NCBI GenBank assembly: GCA_005223145.1 | Contig: NJBL01000011.1 | Span: 1 to 45,844, forward strand | Length of the DNA stretch: 45,844 nt | Source: a bacterium (candidate division B38) B3_B38 | GTDB taxonomy: Bacteria; Acidobacteriota; B3-B38; Guanabaribacteriales; B3-B38 | Reading direction: 5' to 3' | Part shown: positions 27,216 to 35,597 of the stretch, in pieces | Numbering within the stretch: the stretch's first letter is position 1 | Layout: every line of letters starts with the position of its first letter | Translations under genes and position numbers: made by a program | The notes under the pieces: model-generated | What the model was told of the DNA's origin: nothing | Seen by the model: the letters and a program-made list of their open reading frames with translations, nothing else | The model's database searches: none

Positions 27216-29930
27216 TTATGTCCGGATGGTGGCCATCATATAGACCCCACCTATCCCAAAAATAAAGTTAGCAGCCCACGCCCCTAAAAATGGGGAGACC
27301 ACCCCCACACTCCCAAGGCTCTTAAAAAGGCTGACAAAACCCCAATAGACTATTACCAGACCCAAACTGAGAAAAATGCCAGAAAGAGCACCTTTTCTCC
27401 CTACCCGAAAAGAGAAGGGTACCCCTATAAGGACGACGATCAGGGTTATCAGGGGGAAGGAGAGCTTCCAATGGAGGTCGACCTCGTATTTGGTGACATC
27501 ATACCCTCGGCGTTTTATCTCTTTAATGTAAAGCTTCAATTCTCTATAGCTCATTTGTTCGGGAAGGGTCACCTCTTGCCTGAAATAAGATATATCCTCA
27601 GCCAGCTTCATCCTTTGATGCAAGCCGAAAAAAGTAATGGTAGGTGCCGGCTGGGTGAAATCCTGAACCCAGCCATTACTTAAAAGCCATTCCTCCATCT
27701 TCTCGTCCCACCTCGCCTGTTCAGCATAGATCCTACGGGTCAGTCTGAAGCTCTCAGGGTCGTAATCGAATAAAGAAAACTGGCTGACAATGTTATTGTC
27801 CACATCCAACAGGGCATAGAAGTATATCCGCCCCTCTTTCCCTATGACCCATCTTTGCCCCAGATATTGGCGATGGGTTTGGGTGGGACCGCCCTTTATC
27901 TCCTCCAACACCGTCCCCAGCCGCCGGCTGGCATAGGGGAGAACCGTCTCGTAAATCCCAAAGCCCAATCCGCTGATTATAATAGCCATAAGCAAAATAG
28001 GAGCAGAAAGGCGATAGAGACTTATACCACCCGCCTTGAAGGCATGTATCTCGTTATTCTTTGATAACAACCCGAAGGTCACCATGCTCGCCATCAGGGT
28101 AGCCACCGGAAGAATATAGGAGAGCACCTCGGGCAGCTTGAACTTGTAAAAATCGAGCAGCTTCGTATAAGGGACATTGTTCTTGTACATCTCTTCGCTG
28201 ATGTCTATGAAGTCGGTCAGGGCTAACACACAGTAAACTGCCACCGCCACCAAAAGGAACATCTTACCGAAGGTTATCAGGATATACCGGTCTATGATAG
28301 GGGGAAAACCCCCATAGCGGGCTTTTCTCCCCTTGCCTTTCGACCAGAGCCTTACCCTAACAGCGGGACGGGAAGCTCTCAGAAAGAAATTGATAAACCT
28401 CTTCTTCGGCCATCTCACAGCCTTAGCTAAAAAGTGGGTGTCGACCTCTTTCCCCCTATGAAATAGGAGGAATATTCCCAGAGCACCGAATAGAATATTC
28501 GCCGACCACATGCCAAGAAATGGGGGTATCTCCCCTTTATCCCCAAGTGCTTCCCCGTTTATCAAAAATAACCAGTATACAATAAATATGATAAGCCCTA
28601 TGATATAGCAGAGGGACTTGCCTCCTCGACGCATTCCGATGCCCAGAGGGAGAGCCAATATGCCGAAAACCACACAGGCGAAGGGGATGGAGAACTTCTT
28701 ATGAAGTTCAACCATTAATGAGTTGTAGTCCTGCGGGAGGTCCACTTTGTCCAGCTTTAAATCGGTGAATACCAGAATATCTCCACCCTTTACCCGCTTT
28801 TGGAGCAAAGCGTCTTTGTTTAATATGTCCTTTGTTTTCAATAAGTTAGGTAAAGAATAGACACGATTGAAGAGAAGCTCCCCCTCTGAGACTCCCTCCT
28901 CAGGTGGTGTACGATAGATGGATATGGCAAGAAAGACCTTCTCCAGAGAGGAGGGTAGGTAATAGGGAGCCCGAACTAGTACCTTATCCCGGGGCTTTAT
29001 ATGATGTTCGCTGCTCCCTTGCCAGAACATACCTATACCGGTAGTGGCCACCTTTAGTTTAAGAAGAATTCTCTGTTCAAGGTCGCTATTGTTATCTACC
29101 AGCATACTGAGCTCATTTCTCCCTTTCCTTTTTTGAATTTCCTCCCATAGCTCTGCGGGTGTCATAGCCCTCTCATCGGTGACTACATGGAATTGAGTGT
29201 TTATGAAATCTTTTTCCTCAAAAAGGACCATTTGCATCTCCTGGAAAGAGTTCATTCGGGGAGTTTGCGAGCTGGTAGGGGGTTCGTAGAGAGCTCCTTC
29301 AACTAATTGTATACCAATTTTTTTCATCTCAGGGTCATATATCGGCCTTCCTTGATTGGCAAATACAACCCTCGGTTTTCCTATCTCTCTGGTCTCGCAG
29401 AGGAAGACCTTCTTCCATATTTCACCCTTTTTGTCCATATCGGAGACATATAAGACATGATGGGGGAAGTTTTCCTCAAAGACTCTTGGTTTGATTTCCC
29501 CGGAGATAGTCCTGGCAGACATTATCTTAAACTGCAGCTCATTGGTGGAACGGTTACCCCAGGGCAGTGCTTCGGTCATCAGGTAGGTATCCAATATCCA
29601 TGCTGCTGCGCAGAAGATAAGCACAGGGACGAGCATCTTGTATATGCTAATGCCAGCGGAGCGATAGGCTACTATCTCGCTATCCGACGACAGCCTGCTC
29701 ATACCTATCATCGTTCCTAAAAGGGTGGCCATGGGTAATGTAAGCACGATAATGCTGGGCAACATATAAATGAGGAACCTCATCACATTGTCAAGACCTA
29801 CCCCTCTCTGGATGAACATATTTGCTAACAGTAGGAGCTGATTCATAAGTATGATAAAGGTGAACACCAACATTCCAAGCAAAGATGGCGATAGTATCTC
29901 TTTTATAATGTAGCGGTGCATTATCTTCAT
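27216..29930 (-). CDS. LptF-LptG fusion, lipopolysaccharide-export permease
   Basis: LptF and LptG are normally separate permeases of the LptB2FG exporter that extracts lipopolysaccharide from the inner membrane. Here both are one 904-residue chain. The first half (about 1-490) begins MHRYIIKEILSPSLLGMLVF, with three helices, RLSSDSEIVAYRSAGIS, a periplasmic beta domain, then three helices. A basic linker of about 50 residues follows. The second half (from about 540) begins PPIIDRYILITFGKMF, with LLSKNNEIHAFKAGGIS, another beta domain and final helices with LIVVLIGVPFSFRVGRKG. No in-frame stop or missing segment is visible. Both coupling-helix motifs (SDSEIVA and KNNEIHA) are kept. No other lpt gene is in the window. 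Confidence 0.9.
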   Translation of the reverse strand: MKIMHRYIIKEILSPSLLGMLVFTFIILMNQLLLLANMFIQRGVGLDNVMRFLIYMLPSIIVLTLPMATLLGTMIGMSRLSSDSEIVAYRSAGISIYKMLVPVLIFCAAAWILDTYLMTEALPWGNRSTNELQFKIMSARTISGEIKPRVFEENFPHHVLYVSDMDKKGEIWKKVFLCETREIGKPRVVFANQGRPIYDPEMKKIGIQLVEGALYEPPTSSQTPRMNSFQEMQMVLFEEKDFINTQFHVVTDERAMTPAELWEEIQKRKGRNELSMLVDNNSDLEQRILLKLKVATTGIGMFWQGSSEHHIKPRDKVLVRAPYYLPSSLEKVFLAISIYRTPPEEGVSEGELLFNRVYSLPNLLKTKDILNKDALLQKRVKGGDILVFTDLKLDKVDLPQDYNSLMVELHKKFSIPFACVVFGILALPLGIGMRRGGKSLCYIIGLIIFIVYWLFLINGEALGDKGEIPPFLGMWSANILFGALGIFLLFHRGKEVDTHFLAKAVRWPKKRFINFFLRASRPAVRVRLWSKGKGRKARYGGFPPIIDRYILITFGKMFLLVAVAVYCVLALTDFIDISEEMYKNNVPYTKLLDFYKFKLPEVLSYILPVATLMASMVTFGLLSKNNEIHAFKAGGISLYRLSAPILLMAIIISGLGFGIYETVLPYASRRLGTVLEEIKGGPTQTHRQYLGQRWVIGKEGRIYFYALLDVDNNIVSQFSLFDYDPESFRLTRRIYAEQARWDEKMEEWLLSNGWVQDFTQPAPTITFFGLHQRMKLAEDISYFRQEVTLPEQMSYRELKLYIKEIKRRGYDVTKYEVDLHWKLSFPLITLIVVLIGVPFSFRVGRKGALSGIFLSLGLVIVYWGFVSLFKSLGSVGVVSPFLGAWAANFIFGIGGVYMMATIRT

Positions 29931-30528: not shown

Positions 30529-31341
30529 TTACCCCTCGATATGCCTCAGAATCTCTTTGAGGGCTCTTATTATATCCTCCCTGCTGGCTTCTTTTTTGGC
30601 GAACCTGAGGTTAAGGACGAAGCTACTGCCGGCTCCTTTATATGTAAAGGAAAAACGCCTTTCTCTGCCGCTGCTCTTCCGCCTCGCATCCCGGGCGCGA
30701 TCACGAGTCCATCGACCACCTATTATGGAACTAACAAGGGAATTCATATCTTTATCTGTGGGTTGCCGCGCGATCTCTAAAAGGAGGGATTTGGAGGTAA
30801 TGTTCTCCTTCTGGCAAAGCTGACGGATTTTATCGGGTATCCTGTTCAATCTGATTGTTTCGGTGATGCTAACACGCGATTTTGCAATTCGTTTGGCAAT
30901 CTCCTCGTGAGTGTAATGGAACTTCTCACAAAGAAACTGCAAGCCCGATGCTTCTTCAAAGGGCGAAAGGTCTTTTCTTTGTAGATTCTCAATCAAGCCG
31001 AGCTCCGCCGCTTCTGCCCGATCAACCTCCCGCTCAACGCAAGGAACTTCCTTAAGCCCCAGCTCACAACACGACCGAAACCTTCTCTCCCCCGCTATTA
31101 TGTGATATTTTCCTTGATGGAAACGAACTATCAGAGGCTCCAGGAGCCCTTTCTCCCGTATAGAATTTTTCAATTCCTCTAAGTCTCCCAGGGAACTCCT
31201 CGGCTGATCGGGATTGGGCACAATATCCTCAATGGGTATCATCATACCTATAGGAGCTCCCAAACGGGAGGATAGATGCTCCACAAAATGCCGGTCGTGT
31301 CGCATCTTAATTACTTTTGGTAGTCCTTTCCTGCTGGACAC
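30529..31341 (-). CDS. parB: ParB-family partition protein
   Basis: ParB binds parS sites and works with ParA to segregate DNA. The 270-residue protein has the N-terminal nuclease-like domain (IPIEDIVPNPDQPR, EKGLLEPLIVR, IIAGERRFRSCCELG with the CTP-binding GERR box, LIENLQRKDLSPFEEA) and a helix-turn-helix (YTHEEIAKRIAKSRVSITETIRL). The C-terminal region is short and basic. GTG at 31341 has GAGG 9 bases upstream and overlaps parA by 35 bases. ATG at 31305, directly after the parA stop, is an alternative. I found no full parS consensus in the window. Confidence 0.87.
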   Translation of the reverse strand: MSSRKGLPKVIKMRHDRHFVEHLSSRLGAPIGMMIPIEDIVPNPDQPRSSLGDLEELKNSIREKGLLEPLIVRFHQGKYHIIAGERRFRSCCELGLKEVPCVEREVDRAEAAELGLIENLQRKDLSPFEEASGLQFLCEKFHYTHEEIAKRIAKSRVSITETIRLNRIPDKIRQLCQKENITSKSLLLEIARQPTDKDMNSLVSSIIGGRWTRDRARDARRKSSGRERRFSFTYKGAGSSFVLNLRFAKKEASREDIIRALKEILRHIEG

Positions 31342-32086
31342 GGTTTATTACCTCTTGGCAAAGCTGTTTATATTCTATAGCCCCTTTTGAGCCAGGGGCA
31401 AAGGTAAAAATAGACTCCTTGTAAGCGGGGCTCTCTTCTAACCTCACACTCTTGGAGATGACTACACGGAAGACCTTTTTGCCGAAGACCCTCTTTATCT
31501 GGCGAACTATATCCCGCCCAAGGACGGTCCGGTGATCGTGGATGGTGACGAGGACACCCAGGATCTGCAGGCCAGGATTTGGTCTTTTCTTGATTTTTTC
31601 AATAGTTTCCAGCAGATCATCAGTCCCCTCTAAAGAGAAGTAGGATGATTGAATGGGAATGAGGACATGTGAGGCAGCCACCAAGATGTTAACCGTTATG
31701 AGTCCCAAAGATGGAGGGCTATCGATGATAATGAAGTTGTAGTCACCCTTAATCTGCTGCAGCCTATCTTTCAGTCTGAAGTGACCATCAAGCTCTCCTA
31801 ACAGCTTGCTCTCCAGCTTGGCGAGGGAGATTCTGGCTGGTGCCAGGTAAAGTCGCTCGAATTTGGTGGGTATGATGACCTCTGGAAAAATCGACTCACC
31901 GATGAGAACTTCATAATTAGTGATATCGACCTTATCGGGGTCAGTAAAGGCTATGGTGCTGTGCCCCTGGGGATCCATATCTAAAAGAAGGGTAGTATAG
32001 CCCTGCCTGGCTAAGCCAGCGGCCATATTTATCGCGGTGATGGTCTTCCCTACCCCGCCCTTCTGGTTAGTGATAGAAATAATCAT
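31307..32086 (-). CDS. parA: ParA/Soj-type partition ATPase
   Basis: ParA is the Walker-type ATPase that moves ParB-parS complexes. From ATG 32086 the protein has about 259 residues and begins MIISITNQKGGVGKTITAINMA, with the deviant Walker A KGGVGKT, then DMDPQGHST and FIIIDSPPSLGLITVN. The frame stays open to a TTG at 32125, but those bases form the -35 and -10 boxes of the promoter, so ATG 32086 is the better start. It is the first gene of a two-gene operon with parB. The absence of an N-terminal helix-turn-helix points to the chromosomal Soj type. Confidence 0.9.
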   Translation of the reverse strand: MIISITNQKGGVGKTITAINMAAGLARQGYTTLLLDMDPQGHSTIAFTDPDKVDITNYEVLIGESIFPEVIIPTKFERLYLAPARISLAKLESKLLGELDGHFRLKDRLQQIKGDYNFIIIDSPPSLGLITVNILVAASHVLIPIQSSYFSLEGTDDLLETIEKIKKRPNPGLQILGVLVTIHDHRTVLGRDIVRQIKRVFGKKVFRVVISKSVRLEESPAYKESIFTFAPGSKGAIEYKQLCQEVINRVQQERTTKSN

Positions 32087-32096
32087 CTTTAAATAA

Positions 32097-32125
32097 ATAA
32101 TAAGATAGTTTTGAGCACAAGTCAA
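32097..32125 (-). promoter_or_regulatory. parA promoter, predicted nearly leaderless transcript
   Basis: On the minus strand, TTGACT (32125-32120), a 17-base spacer and TATTAT (32102-32097). The ATG at 32086 is only 10 bases after the -10 box, so the RNA would start about 3-4 bases before the start codon, without a ribosome-binding site. Confidence 0.65.
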
Positions 32126-32240: not shown

Positions 32241-34640
32241 TTAGCCTATATTCTTTTGAATGTTGTCCTTAGAGGATGAGTCTATAGTGAAGCTATGGCG
32301 AAAGAAAGATGCTTGGGAGATTAACTCGTCTACTGAGAAAGATGTGATAGGGTAAGAGCTATAGCCTGCTGACATGCTAACAGGGAGCAGATCATCTTTT
32401 ATACTTGAAGGCTTTTTGGAAAAGTGGTTGATTAGTCTACTAAGAATATTTTTTATCTGATTACCCATCTCGGGAAATATGATGGCGAACTTATCGGGTG
32501 CAAGATGAAAAAATATGTCGCAGCTACGGAAGAGTTTCTCTAAATCAGCGCCGATACGGGAAATTAGTAAGCTCTGGCGGCCGGGAGAGAGGTTACTCAG
32601 ATCTTCAATTTTCAGCACTATCAAAGAAAGCTCCCTTTTATAGCGGTCAGCCCGCTGAGTCTCCTCATGGAGGCGATGCCGAAGATATCTCTCATTGAAC
32701 ATACCAGTGAGCTCATCTATTGTCTGAAGCGATTTTTTCCGATTAAGCTCTTGAAGGTTGACTATTGACTTGCTCACATAAGAGGTGAACTTCCCTAAGA
32801 TCTCCCTATCATCCATAGTAAACTGTGGAGAGAACAAAAACTTGTCCTCTATTTTATTATAGAGGGAGAGGGTACCCAGAAGAGTTTTTTCTTCTACCAA
32901 GGGGGAGCATAAGGCAGATTTAAGCGGGAATAGCTTATCCACCCCATAATGAGAAGAGTACAAATCAGGGATAAGTAGGGGGAGTTTGCTCTTAAAGACT
33001 TCCAAGCATATCCTCCCATCTAATTTTTGTACTTCCCTATATAATTGAGGCTCTTTAAATCCATAGGAGGAGCGAACCAGCAACTTATTGGCACTCTCTT
33101 GATATAATCTCAAGATGCACATCTCAGCTTCCAGTAGCTGGGCAGCTGAGGCGGTTATTACGAAATAGAGCTTCTCTTCATTGGATATATTAATCAGGTC
33201 CATTCCTGATTCATTAATAGCTGAGATTTTAAGCATCTTTTGTTGCCACCGTTCCTTCTCCAGTTCCTGATATATGCGATGAGCCAAAAAACCGCTGATT
33301 TCCCTGCAATAGGTGAGAAGCTGGTCAGTAAGGTTAGGGTCACCGGAAAAATGGAAGGTAATTACACCCAAGAGCTTAAAGTTAACTATCATAGGCAATA
33401 AGTAGAGAAACTCCTCTCTGGCGTTTGGCTCCTGTCCAGAGAATAATCCGCTGGCATATTCTTTCAGCAGAAGGGGTCTCTTCAGTTTCAGCACCTTCCC
33501 TATTGTTCCTTGATAGTCGCGGTAGGTGATTAAACCAAAAAGATTGGGGTTTATTTGTAGAGAAGCCTGAAGGGTAACTTCGGGTAAGGTGGAATAGGGG
33601 TCTCTAAGATAGAGGTCACAGGAATCTATTTTCAGCTCCTCATGTATCTTCTTCACGCTCTGTTGCAATTTTTCCTTTATGGGCAGGGAGGAATCCCATA
33701 TCTCACTGATGGACCCCCGGACAACCTGTTCATCTCGGGAATCTTGGAGCTTCTGGTAGGTTCTAATCTCTGCTAAATACTTAGCCGATTTGGCGGCGAG
33801 CTCTGTCATAAAGGCGAGATGGTGGCGGCTGAAAGCATCGGTAAAGCTGTTGTGCCCAACTGAGATGACTCCCAAGGGCGACCCCTTCGTCTTTATAGGG
33901 ACAGAGATAAGCGACTTCATTCCCTCCTCCTCCAGCAGATGTCTGTAGCGGAGGTCATCGTAATTCCCCGATAGGAGTAGCGCTTCGCCTATCTGAGCAA
34001 CCCTGCCGGCAATCCCCTCCCCTATCTTAGGAAATCTCAATTCCGGCTTTCGGGTGATAGCCTGGGAAAGCCCCTTCTGGGCTACCATAAGGAGATTCTT
34101 CTCATTCCGGTTCATTAACATTAGAGAACCTGCATTTCCACCACAACCTTGCAGACCAACATTAAGGAGGAGATGATAGAACTCCTCAGGGTTATGGGTT
34201 AAGTCTATGGAATTAGCCGTCTCCAGAAAAAGATTAAGGGCAAGGAACTGTTGGGGGGAGAATTCTCTCTGCAGACTTTCTTTCCCCCCCTCTACTTCGA
34301 TGGAGGCTTTCATTTTCCTTATCAGCTTGGCGCTGTTCGCTTTCATTATTTGGGCTTCAGGGGGGCTAAACTGGTAGATCTGCTGGTGAAGGGATTCACT
34401 GTTAGAGGCGTCAACTATAATATCAATTTCGGGTATCTCCATTAATATCTGCAGGTCGTGATAAAAGCTGACCGATATCTCATCGCTAAACCGATATCCA
34501 TACTTCTCCAGATTGAACCCCAATGCCTCCTTATCAGGGTCTATTAAGGCGACAACCTCTATTTGAGGGTCTTTGCGCATCAGAGCCATTATCTCTAATC
34601 CCTCAAGATTCGCCCCTACTATGACAACCTTCTCCGACAT
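32241..34640 (-). CDS. Signalling protein: Rossmann-like domain, GAF domains, degenerate GGDEF
   Basis: This 799-residue protein has an unusual N-terminus of about 110 residues resembling an NAD(P)-binding Rossmann fold (KVVIVGANLEGLEIMALM, VVALIDPDKEALG, DIIVDAS). Two or three GAF-like sensor domains follow (for example GIAGRVAQIGEALLLSGN, LISVPIKTKGSPLGVISVG, LCSPLVEEKTLLGTLSLYN). A C-terminal GGDEF domain begins DELTGMFNERYL. Its active-site motif reads APDKF at 714-718 instead of GGDEF, and the metal-binding Asp region reads LKIEDL, so cyclic-di-GMP synthesis is unlikely. The RxxD inhibitory site (R705-S-C-D708) is intact, so it may bind cyclic-di-GMP as a receptor. It starts 2 bases after the upstream response-regulator gene. 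Confidence 0.82.
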   Translation of the reverse strand: MSEKVVIVGANLEGLEIMALMRKDPQIEVVALIDPDKEALGFNLEKYGYRFSDEISVSFYHDLQILMEIPEIDIIVDASNSESLHQQIYQFSPPEAQIMKANSAKLIRKMKASIEVEGGKESLQREFSPQQFLALNLFLETANSIDLTHNPEEFYHLLLNVGLQGCGGNAGSLMLMNRNEKNLLMVAQKGLSQAITRKPELRFPKIGEGIAGRVAQIGEALLLSGNYDDLRYRHLLEEEGMKSLISVPIKTKGSPLGVISVGHNSFTDAFSRHHLAFMTELAAKSAKYLAEIRTYQKLQDSRDEQVVRGSISEIWDSSLPIKEKLQQSVKKIHEELKIDSCDLYLRDPYSTLPEVTLQASLQINPNLFGLITYRDYQGTIGKVLKLKRPLLLKEYASGLFSGQEPNAREEFLYLLPMIVNFKLLGVITFHFSGDPNLTDQLLTYCREISGFLAHRIYQELEKERWQQKMLKISAINESGMDLINISNEEKLYFVITASAAQLLEAEMCILRLYQESANKLLVRSSYGFKEPQLYREVQKLDGRICLEVFKSKLPLLIPDLYSSHYGVDKLFPLKSALCSPLVEEKTLLGTLSLYNKIEDKFLFSPQFTMDDREILGKFTSYVSKSIVNLQELNRKKSLQTIDELTGMFNERYLRHRLHEETQRADRYKRELSLIVLKIEDLSNLSPGRQSLLISRIGADLEKLFRSCDIFFHLAPDKFAIIFPEMGNQIKNILSRLINHFSKKPSSIKDDLLPVSMSAGYSSYPITSFSVDELISQASFFRHSFTIDSSSKDNIQKNIG

Positions 34641-34642
34641 GG

Positions 34643-35491
34643 CTATCTCCCGATTTTCTTAATCAGACCAAGGGCTTCAATCCTTTCGAGACCCTTTTGT
34701 AAATCCGGGGTGAGGTTTAAGGGAGCCTCCTGACCAAATAGCTTATCCAGCATCGGCTCTTGCAGAGTGGCTTTTCTATCATTGTCCAGACGCGTAAGCT
34801 GCGTCAGCAAGAGAGCTTCGGGCTTTTTATCAATGGTGGTCTCGTAAACATTAGAAATTCCATCCTTTATAATAATCTCAGCATCCGTGAGCCTCAGTTG
34901 CTCATAGACGGCAACATCACCATGAAGGTCACCCAAGAAAGCATGTTTTATTACCCCTCCTTCCATAAATATCTTCCCCTTTAGCTCCCCTTTTTCAATC
35001 ATTATGGTGCAAGTCTTCTGATTCATTCCTAAAACCTGAAGAAGATCTGCCAGGCTTAAATGACTAGAGCTGGCAGAGGCAGTTTTACTCTGGAAGGAGG
35101 GGCTCTCTTTTTTATCGGAGACCCTCTTAAGAATTATCTCCACCCGTGCTAACAAGTCTTCAAAGCCGAAGGGTTTGACCAGAAAATCGTCACTTCCCAC
35201 CTCCACAGCCTTAAGAGGGCTAAAATCCTCCTTCTTATTTGCCACCAAGATAAAGGGGGTATCCTCAGTTAGTGGGTTAGTTTTGACCAGTTGACAAAAG
35301 CTCCATCCATCAAGTTTCGGCGAGTCGATGTTGGATATTATCAGATCGGGTCTTACTCGTTGGGCAATCTCCATGCCCTCACGACAGTTATTGGCAGTGT
35401 AAACCTGAAATCGATCGGCAGAGAATCGGGATTTCATGTTTTTGAGGAAATTGTTATCGCCGTCTACTATAAGAAGATTAACCTGAGGCAT
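34643..35491 (-). CDS. Pseudo-receiver protein with DUF4388 (PATAN) domain
   Basis: The protein has about 282 residues from ATG 35491, with GGAGG 4 bases upstream (a GTG sits one codon earlier). Residues 1-120 form a CheY-like receiver: LLIVDGDNNF keeps acidic residues, and LVKPFGFEDLLARVE keeps the conserved Lys. The phosphorylation site reads SNIDSPKLDGW, with Asn54 where Asp is normal, and the conserved Thr/Ser is Ala (ILVANK). It is therefore probably not phosphorylated in the usual way. A Ser-rich linker is followed by a DUF4388-like domain (SLADLLQVLGMNQKTCTIMIE, GKIFMEGGVIKHAFLGDLHGD) and a helical tail. It is co-transcribed with the degenerate-GGDEF protein. Confidence 0.83.
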   Translation of the reverse strand: MPQVNLLIVDGDNNFLKNMKSRFSADRFQVYTANNCREGMEIAQRVRPDLIISNIDSPKLDGWSFCQLVKTNPLTEDTPFILVANKKEDFSPLKAVEVGSDDFLVKPFGFEDLLARVEIILKRVSDKKESPSFQSKTASASSSHLSLADLLQVLGMNQKTCTIMIEKGELKGKIFMEGGVIKHAFLGDLHGDVAVYEQLRLTDAEIIIKDGISNVYETTIDKKPEALLLTQLTRLDNDRKATLQEPMLDKLFGQEAPLNLTPDLQKGLERIEALGLIKKIGR

Positions 35492-35568: not shown

Positions 35569-35597
35569 AAGATACTACAAAAATAGCTCCCTGTCAA
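35569..35597 (-). promoter_or_regulatory. Promoter of the pseudo-receiver/GGDEF operon
   Basis: On the minus strand, TTGACA (35597-35592), a 17-base spacer and TATCTT (35574-35569). The leader to the ATG at 35491 is about 70 bases. Confidence 0.6.

Follow-up and report, generated by a model that had tools for sequence, protein, structure and literature searches.

Among the closest described systems, PelD couples a GAF domain to a degenerate GGDEF domain and binds c-di-GMP through an RxxD motif and a third Arg, and some PelD proteins carry an N-terminal Rossmann-type SDR/epimerase domain with altered cofactor residues (PMC7112168). PopA of Caulobacter is a receptor with a REC-REC-degenerate GGDEF architecture in which RxxD is kept (PMC10333796). 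In aspartate-less receivers, Asn is the second commonest replacement of the Asp, at 16% (PMC4395418), and what switches pseudo-receivers in bacteria is still an open question (PMC12632262). Moreover, PATAN regulators bind the pilus motor PilB (PMC10519157), and the pilus motor is their target in cyanobacteria (PMC7690835, PMC10519157).

In this study, a gene pair was analysed within the window, that is, the whole stretch of 45,844 nt of contig NJBL01000011.1 in which all positions are counted. Both genes lie on the minus strand, and the layout is as follows:

34643 to 35491, minus strand: first gene, protein 2, 282 residues, pseudo-receiver and DUF4388 (ORF; Pfam Response_reg 9.3e-18, DUF4388 2.6e-10; conserved in 4 genomes)
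32241 to 34640, minus strand: second gene, protein 1, 799 residues, Rossmann-like module, three GAF domains and degenerate GGDEF domain (ORF, Pfam)
35569 to 35597, minus strand: promoter-like site TTGACA-17-TATCTT upstream of protein 2 (consensus scan, 10 of 12 matches; weak evidence)

By the ORF positions, the stop of protein 2 is separated from protein 1 by a gap of 2 bases. The pair was present in the same order in all four genomes of the class that were examined, with two orthologues from the same genus at 84-85% identity and one from another family at 39-40%; a scan of the genome contigs recovered only the two same-genus orthologues. The loss of the signature and of the phospho-site is more than a chance event, as the pair, its order and the substitutions recur in three other genomes, the independent lineages that carry it being only two (two families). 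Furthermore, dN/dS was 0.06-0.27 in every domain of both proteins, and these are therefore working genes under purifying selection.

Downstream of the pair on the same strand of the window lie parAB and, beyond them, an LptF-LptG fusion gene, and in the other family the fused gene follows the pair directly. The parAB genes (30529-32125, minus strand) stand between the pair and lptFG in one genus; the other family lacks them at this position. LptF and LptG are normally encoded by two genes; in this lineage they form one ORF of about 900 residues (27216-29930, minus strand, in the window; 10671-13475 in L036; 10317-12995 in L136), and the LptF_LptG Pfam match falls in three stretches of the window copy.

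The features of protein 2, with residues such as Asn54 numbered from the ATG at 35491, are the following:

35138 to 35473, minus strand: receiver domain with degenerate active site (Pfam; D54N, T84A, DD2 is Gly11, Lys106 kept)
35330 to 35332, minus strand: Asn54 codon at the phospho-Asp position (invariant in 4 orthologues; Asp in the nearest relatives outside the class)
34781 to 35065, minus strand: DUF4388 (PATAN-like) output domain (Pfam)

The receiver of protein 2 scored 64.9 bits against the PF00072 profile. In the alignment, the phospho-Asp was replaced by Asn54, the second acidic residue by Gly11 and the Thr/Ser by Ala84, and Lys106 was retained together with the Pro and Gly landmarks. 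A receiver family match in which D, DD2 and T are all lost marks the domain as a pseudo-receiver. The first-pass annotation had already read Asn in place of the phospho-Asp and Ala in place of the Thr/Ser, and the alignment bears this out; its domain description was right for the receiver and GGDEF sites but missed the three GAF domains of protein 1 and the DUF4388 domain of protein 2 (PF14332, 40.8 bits vs a curated cut-off of 25), which from its InterPro name we take to be PATAN-like. The same Asp to Asn change is found in the pseudo-receiver RitR (PMC4395418). RitR, FrzS and ShkA are likewise pseudo- or aspartate-less receivers, but protein 2 differs in that DUF4388 takes the place of a fused DNA-binding or kinase domain. 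The PATAN response regulators PixG, PixE and LsiR combine a receiver with a PATAN-like domain as protein 2 does (PMC7690835); however, protein 2 puts the receiver first, unlike these three, and the cyanobacterial regulators serve light-controlled systems.

Receiver-DUF4388 proteins were common in the phylum. The nearest of them outside the class had Asp, Thr/Ser and Lys intact, so the loss of Asp54 is a derived trait of the class, and no intact-site receiver-DUF4388 protein was found among the class relatives examined. Close homologues with intact sites, which had been named at first pass as the mark of a local oddity, thus exist outside the class and were not found inside it. A REC-GAF-HD-GYP gene lay beside the receiver-DUF4388 gene in 5 of 26 loci (L111, L113, L119, L121 and L126; two of the five confirmed by Pfam), and in 3 of the 26 (L118, L127 and L131) the receiver-DUF4388 unit was fused behind HD-GYP, both counts being lower bounds with loci only a few kb long. 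By gene context, these neighbours and fusions tie the family of protein 2 to the metabolism of c-di-GMP, a connection that does not depend on RxxD. In the three HD-GYP fusions, the receiver adjoining DUF4388 was also degenerate.

Behind its N-terminal module, protein 1 carries the following features:

33789 to 34196, minus strand: GAF domain 1, residues 149-284 (Pfam GAF and GAF_2)
33273 to 33713, minus strand: GAF domain 2, about residues 310-456 (one of three Pfam GAF stretches; limits estimated)
32763 to 33233, minus strand: GAF domain 3, about residues 470-626 (Pfam GAF_3 at 499-626; start estimated)
32310 to 32723, minus strand: degenerate GGDEF domain, residues 640-777 (PF00990, 50.7 bits, over the cut-off)
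32610 to 32612, minus strand: Lys677 at the metal-binding Asp position (Lys in 4 of 4 orthologues; Asp in 28 of 28 intact GGDEF domains)
32517 to 32528, minus strand: RxxD (RSCD, residues 705-708), primary I-site (4 of 4 orthologues)
32487 to 32501, minus strand: APDKF (residues 714-718) at the GGDEF position (SPDKF and EDDVF in orthologues)
32436 to 32438, minus strand: Arg735, equivalent of PleD Arg390 and of the third I-site Arg of PelD (invariant in 4 orthologues)

The sequence of protein 1 looks soluble; a full-length AlphaFold model from three sequences had a mean pLDDT of 34.7 and was set aside. The domain belongs to PF00990 (cut-off 23.8 bits), and on alignment with 28 intact GGDEF domains RSCD, APDKF and Lys677, the last within the strand VLKIED, fall on RxxD, GGDEF and the metal Asp, in agreement with the initial reading of APDKF, a Lys in the metal-binding strand and RxxD at 705-708. 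Neither the GG[DE]EF signature nor the metal Asp of an active cyclase is present, and both are lost in all orthologues, the signature varying between APDKF and SPDKF and reading EDDVF in the most distant genome. The I-site elements are both present, with RxxD exactly five residues ahead of the GGDEF position, as in solved DgcR, and with Arg735 at 30 residues past the I-site Arg; a shorter loop brings it one residue closer than the 31 of most intact domains. Asn54, Arg705, Asp708 and Arg735 are invariant in the four orthologues. At the place of the Arg in RxGGDEF, two residues ahead of the GGDEF position, every orthologue has His, and a secondary I-site Arg could not be identified in the degenerate GGDEF domain.

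The 28 intact GGDEF domains share 44 conserved columns, and 15 of these are retained by all four orthologues. When columns were allocated to catalytic or substrate roles or to the I-site on the basis of what is established for PleD, the survivors included 3 of 3 I-site positions (Arg705, Asp708 and Arg735) and only 1 of about 10 catalytic or substrate positions (Asp716). RxxD was also present in nearly all active GGDEF domains checked in the phylum, with the third Arg as consensus. Since RxxD is ancestral in GGDEF domains and just two lineages carry the pair, its retention is only suggestive and not diagnostic; the survey of homologues for RxxD proposed at first pass thus found the motif kept in 4 of 4 orthologues but also found it to be the norm in intact domains.

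Protein 1 resembles PelD in having GAF and catalytically dead GGDEF domains with RxxD and the third I-site Arg, but it has three GAF domains, another Rossmann type and a pseudo-receiver partner. An identification with PelD was ruled out, as there is no PelD-type GGDEF Pfam match in protein 1 and PelG was not found in the genome, which is 93% complete. With PopA, the pair shares a dead GGDEF domain with RxxD and the combination of receivers and GGDEF in one pathway; however, receiver and GGDEF are here on separate proteins, and Rossmann and GAF domains replace the fused receivers. The best solved-structure match of the GGDEF domain was DgcR of Leptospira, in which R206xxD209 aligns with RSCD and which, unlike protein 1, is an active cyclase.

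The N-terminus of protein 1 holds a further domain:

34305 to 34640, minus strand: Rossmann-like module, residues 1-112 (Pfam GFO_IDH_MocA, model, relatives)

The isolated domain matched Pfam GFO_IDH_MocA at 4.8e-6, and full-length protein 1 gave a sub-threshold Rossmann match at this end. A model from three sequences (pLDDT 67) had strands alternating with helices, and NAD(P)-dependent dehydrogenases were its top PDB matches (E 6e-4 to 1e-3); a profile search against PDB sequences gave marginal matches only. In a profile search of about 400 genomes of the phylum, related N-terminal domains were found on sigma-54 activators (L079, L080), PAS histidine kinases (L082 and L086, of which L086 is truncated at the end of its contig) and MCP-like proteins (L081, L083, L084, L085, L087, L089, L091 and L092), with ordinary dehydrogenases as weaker matches lower in the list. 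The N-terminal domains of these signalling relatives gave weak dehydrogenase-family matches in Pfam and have no family of their own, and a literature search found no N-terminal Rossmann sensor of this kind. The idea that the domain is unique to protein 1 was dropped in view of the relatives on other signalling proteins. The domain proposed by the first-pass annotation is supported by sequence and, tentatively, by the predicted fold, as a recurrent signalling module and not as an unusual extra. Its suggested NAD(H) sensing is weak: GxGxxG is replaced by GANLEG here and GGDYPG in L009, with GAGNGG or GGGRGG in relatives, and because the glycine motif is eroded, NAD(H) binding by the protein 1 version is doubtful. 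The module may instead bind a different ligand or serve structure alone.

Elsewhere in the genome, four GGDEF domains retain intact signatures and three HD-GYP-type domains are present, so c-di-GMP should be both made and degraded in the cell. No PilZ or EAL domain was found in this 93% complete genome. Five MshEN matches were found; the pair is thus not the only possible c-di-GMP receptor, and the MshEN domains probably mark the presence of type IV pilus or secretion motors.

Taken on sequence alone, the domains, the lost catalytic and phosphorylation residues, the kept I-site residues, the conservation of the operon and the purifying selection suggest, at slightly under an even chance, that the pair is a cytoplasmic, non-catalytic c-di-GMP-receptor/adaptor unit resembling PelD and PopA, for which we infer the binding, the contact and the output. 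Protein 1 would integrate what its Rossmann and GAF domains sense with c-di-GMP, which would be supplied by the other diguanylate cyclases of the cell and be bound by the I-site left in the dead GGDEF domain. Protein 2 would be an unphosphorylated pseudo-receiver adaptor, probably docking on protein 1, and its DUF4388/PATAN-like domain would relay the state to machinery of the envelope or the pilus; the lptFG neighbourhood, seen in two lineages, may hint at an envelope output. The receiver could also act alone.

The receptor reading is favoured because all three I-site residues are kept while nearly all active-site columns are lost, and because the two lineages have broken the GGDEF signature in different ways and Asn54 is invariant in both; the change of the RxGGDEF Arg to His, the shortened small loop and the missing secondary I-site Arg count against it, as do the partly expected inheritance of RxxD and the third Arg, the small number of lineages and the MshEN candidates. 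The GGDEF remnant might instead be a structural or dimerisation domain, or bind another nucleotide such as GTP, with RxxD as a relic and with the Rossmann and GAF domains signalling to the pseudo-receiver independently of c-di-GMP. This is possible, at well below an even chance: RxxD is the inherited state in nearly all intact domains checked, the GAF and Rossmann domains give enough ligand sites, and the MshEN proteins offer other receptor candidates, but the persistence of all three I-site residues in both lineages, with nearly all active-site columns gone, speaks against a relic.

The retention of Lys106 and of the Pro and Gly landmarks, together with the Asn to Asp reversion reported in receivers (PMC4395418), would allow protein 2 to be a conventional response regulator in which Asn54 is deamidated to Asp or Asp56 is weakly phosphorylated, with protein 1 as a side partner. 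We consider this very unlikely, as Gly11 and Ala84 are present too and metal and phosphoryl binding should fail; moreover, Asp56 is Ser in L009, and neither the window nor L136 shows an evident histidine kinase gene next to the pair. Decay of a former cyclase gene and a former response regulator gene would agree with the loss of both active sites, but it is highly improbable, being contradicted by the purifying selection (dN/dS 0.06-0.27 in all domains), the intact ORFs and the synteny held in four genomes of two families.

A non-catalytic, ligand-driven pair is thus the best reading of the sequences, with c-di-GMP as a reasonable candidate ligand, and both proteins have been kept by selection, probably to sense small molecules such as c-di-GMP directly. 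The first-pass proposal of a ligand-binding pathway in place of a phosphorylation or cyclase pathway stands in so far as both sites are lost and the I-site is kept across two families, and is weakened in so far as GGDEF domains here carry RxxD by default. A more ambitious and rather unlikely extension is that one dead-enzyme scaffold combines the readings of a Rossmann-fold metabolite sensor and of a c-di-GMP I-site, which the pseudo-receiver-DUF4388 protein relays, the Rossmann module being an unrecognised cytoplasmic input domain that protein 1 has in common with sigma-54 activators, histidine kinases and MCP-like proteins.

In conclusion, the locus is a new combination of known parts. If the extended reading is true, the pathway would work with neither phosphotransfer nor cyclase chemistry. 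The Rossmann module, which has no Pfam family of its own, may indicate a general cytoplasmic metabolite-sensing input, and the pseudo-receiver beside a candidate c-di-GMP receptor offers a small, testable case in which ligand occupancy would replace phosphorylation.
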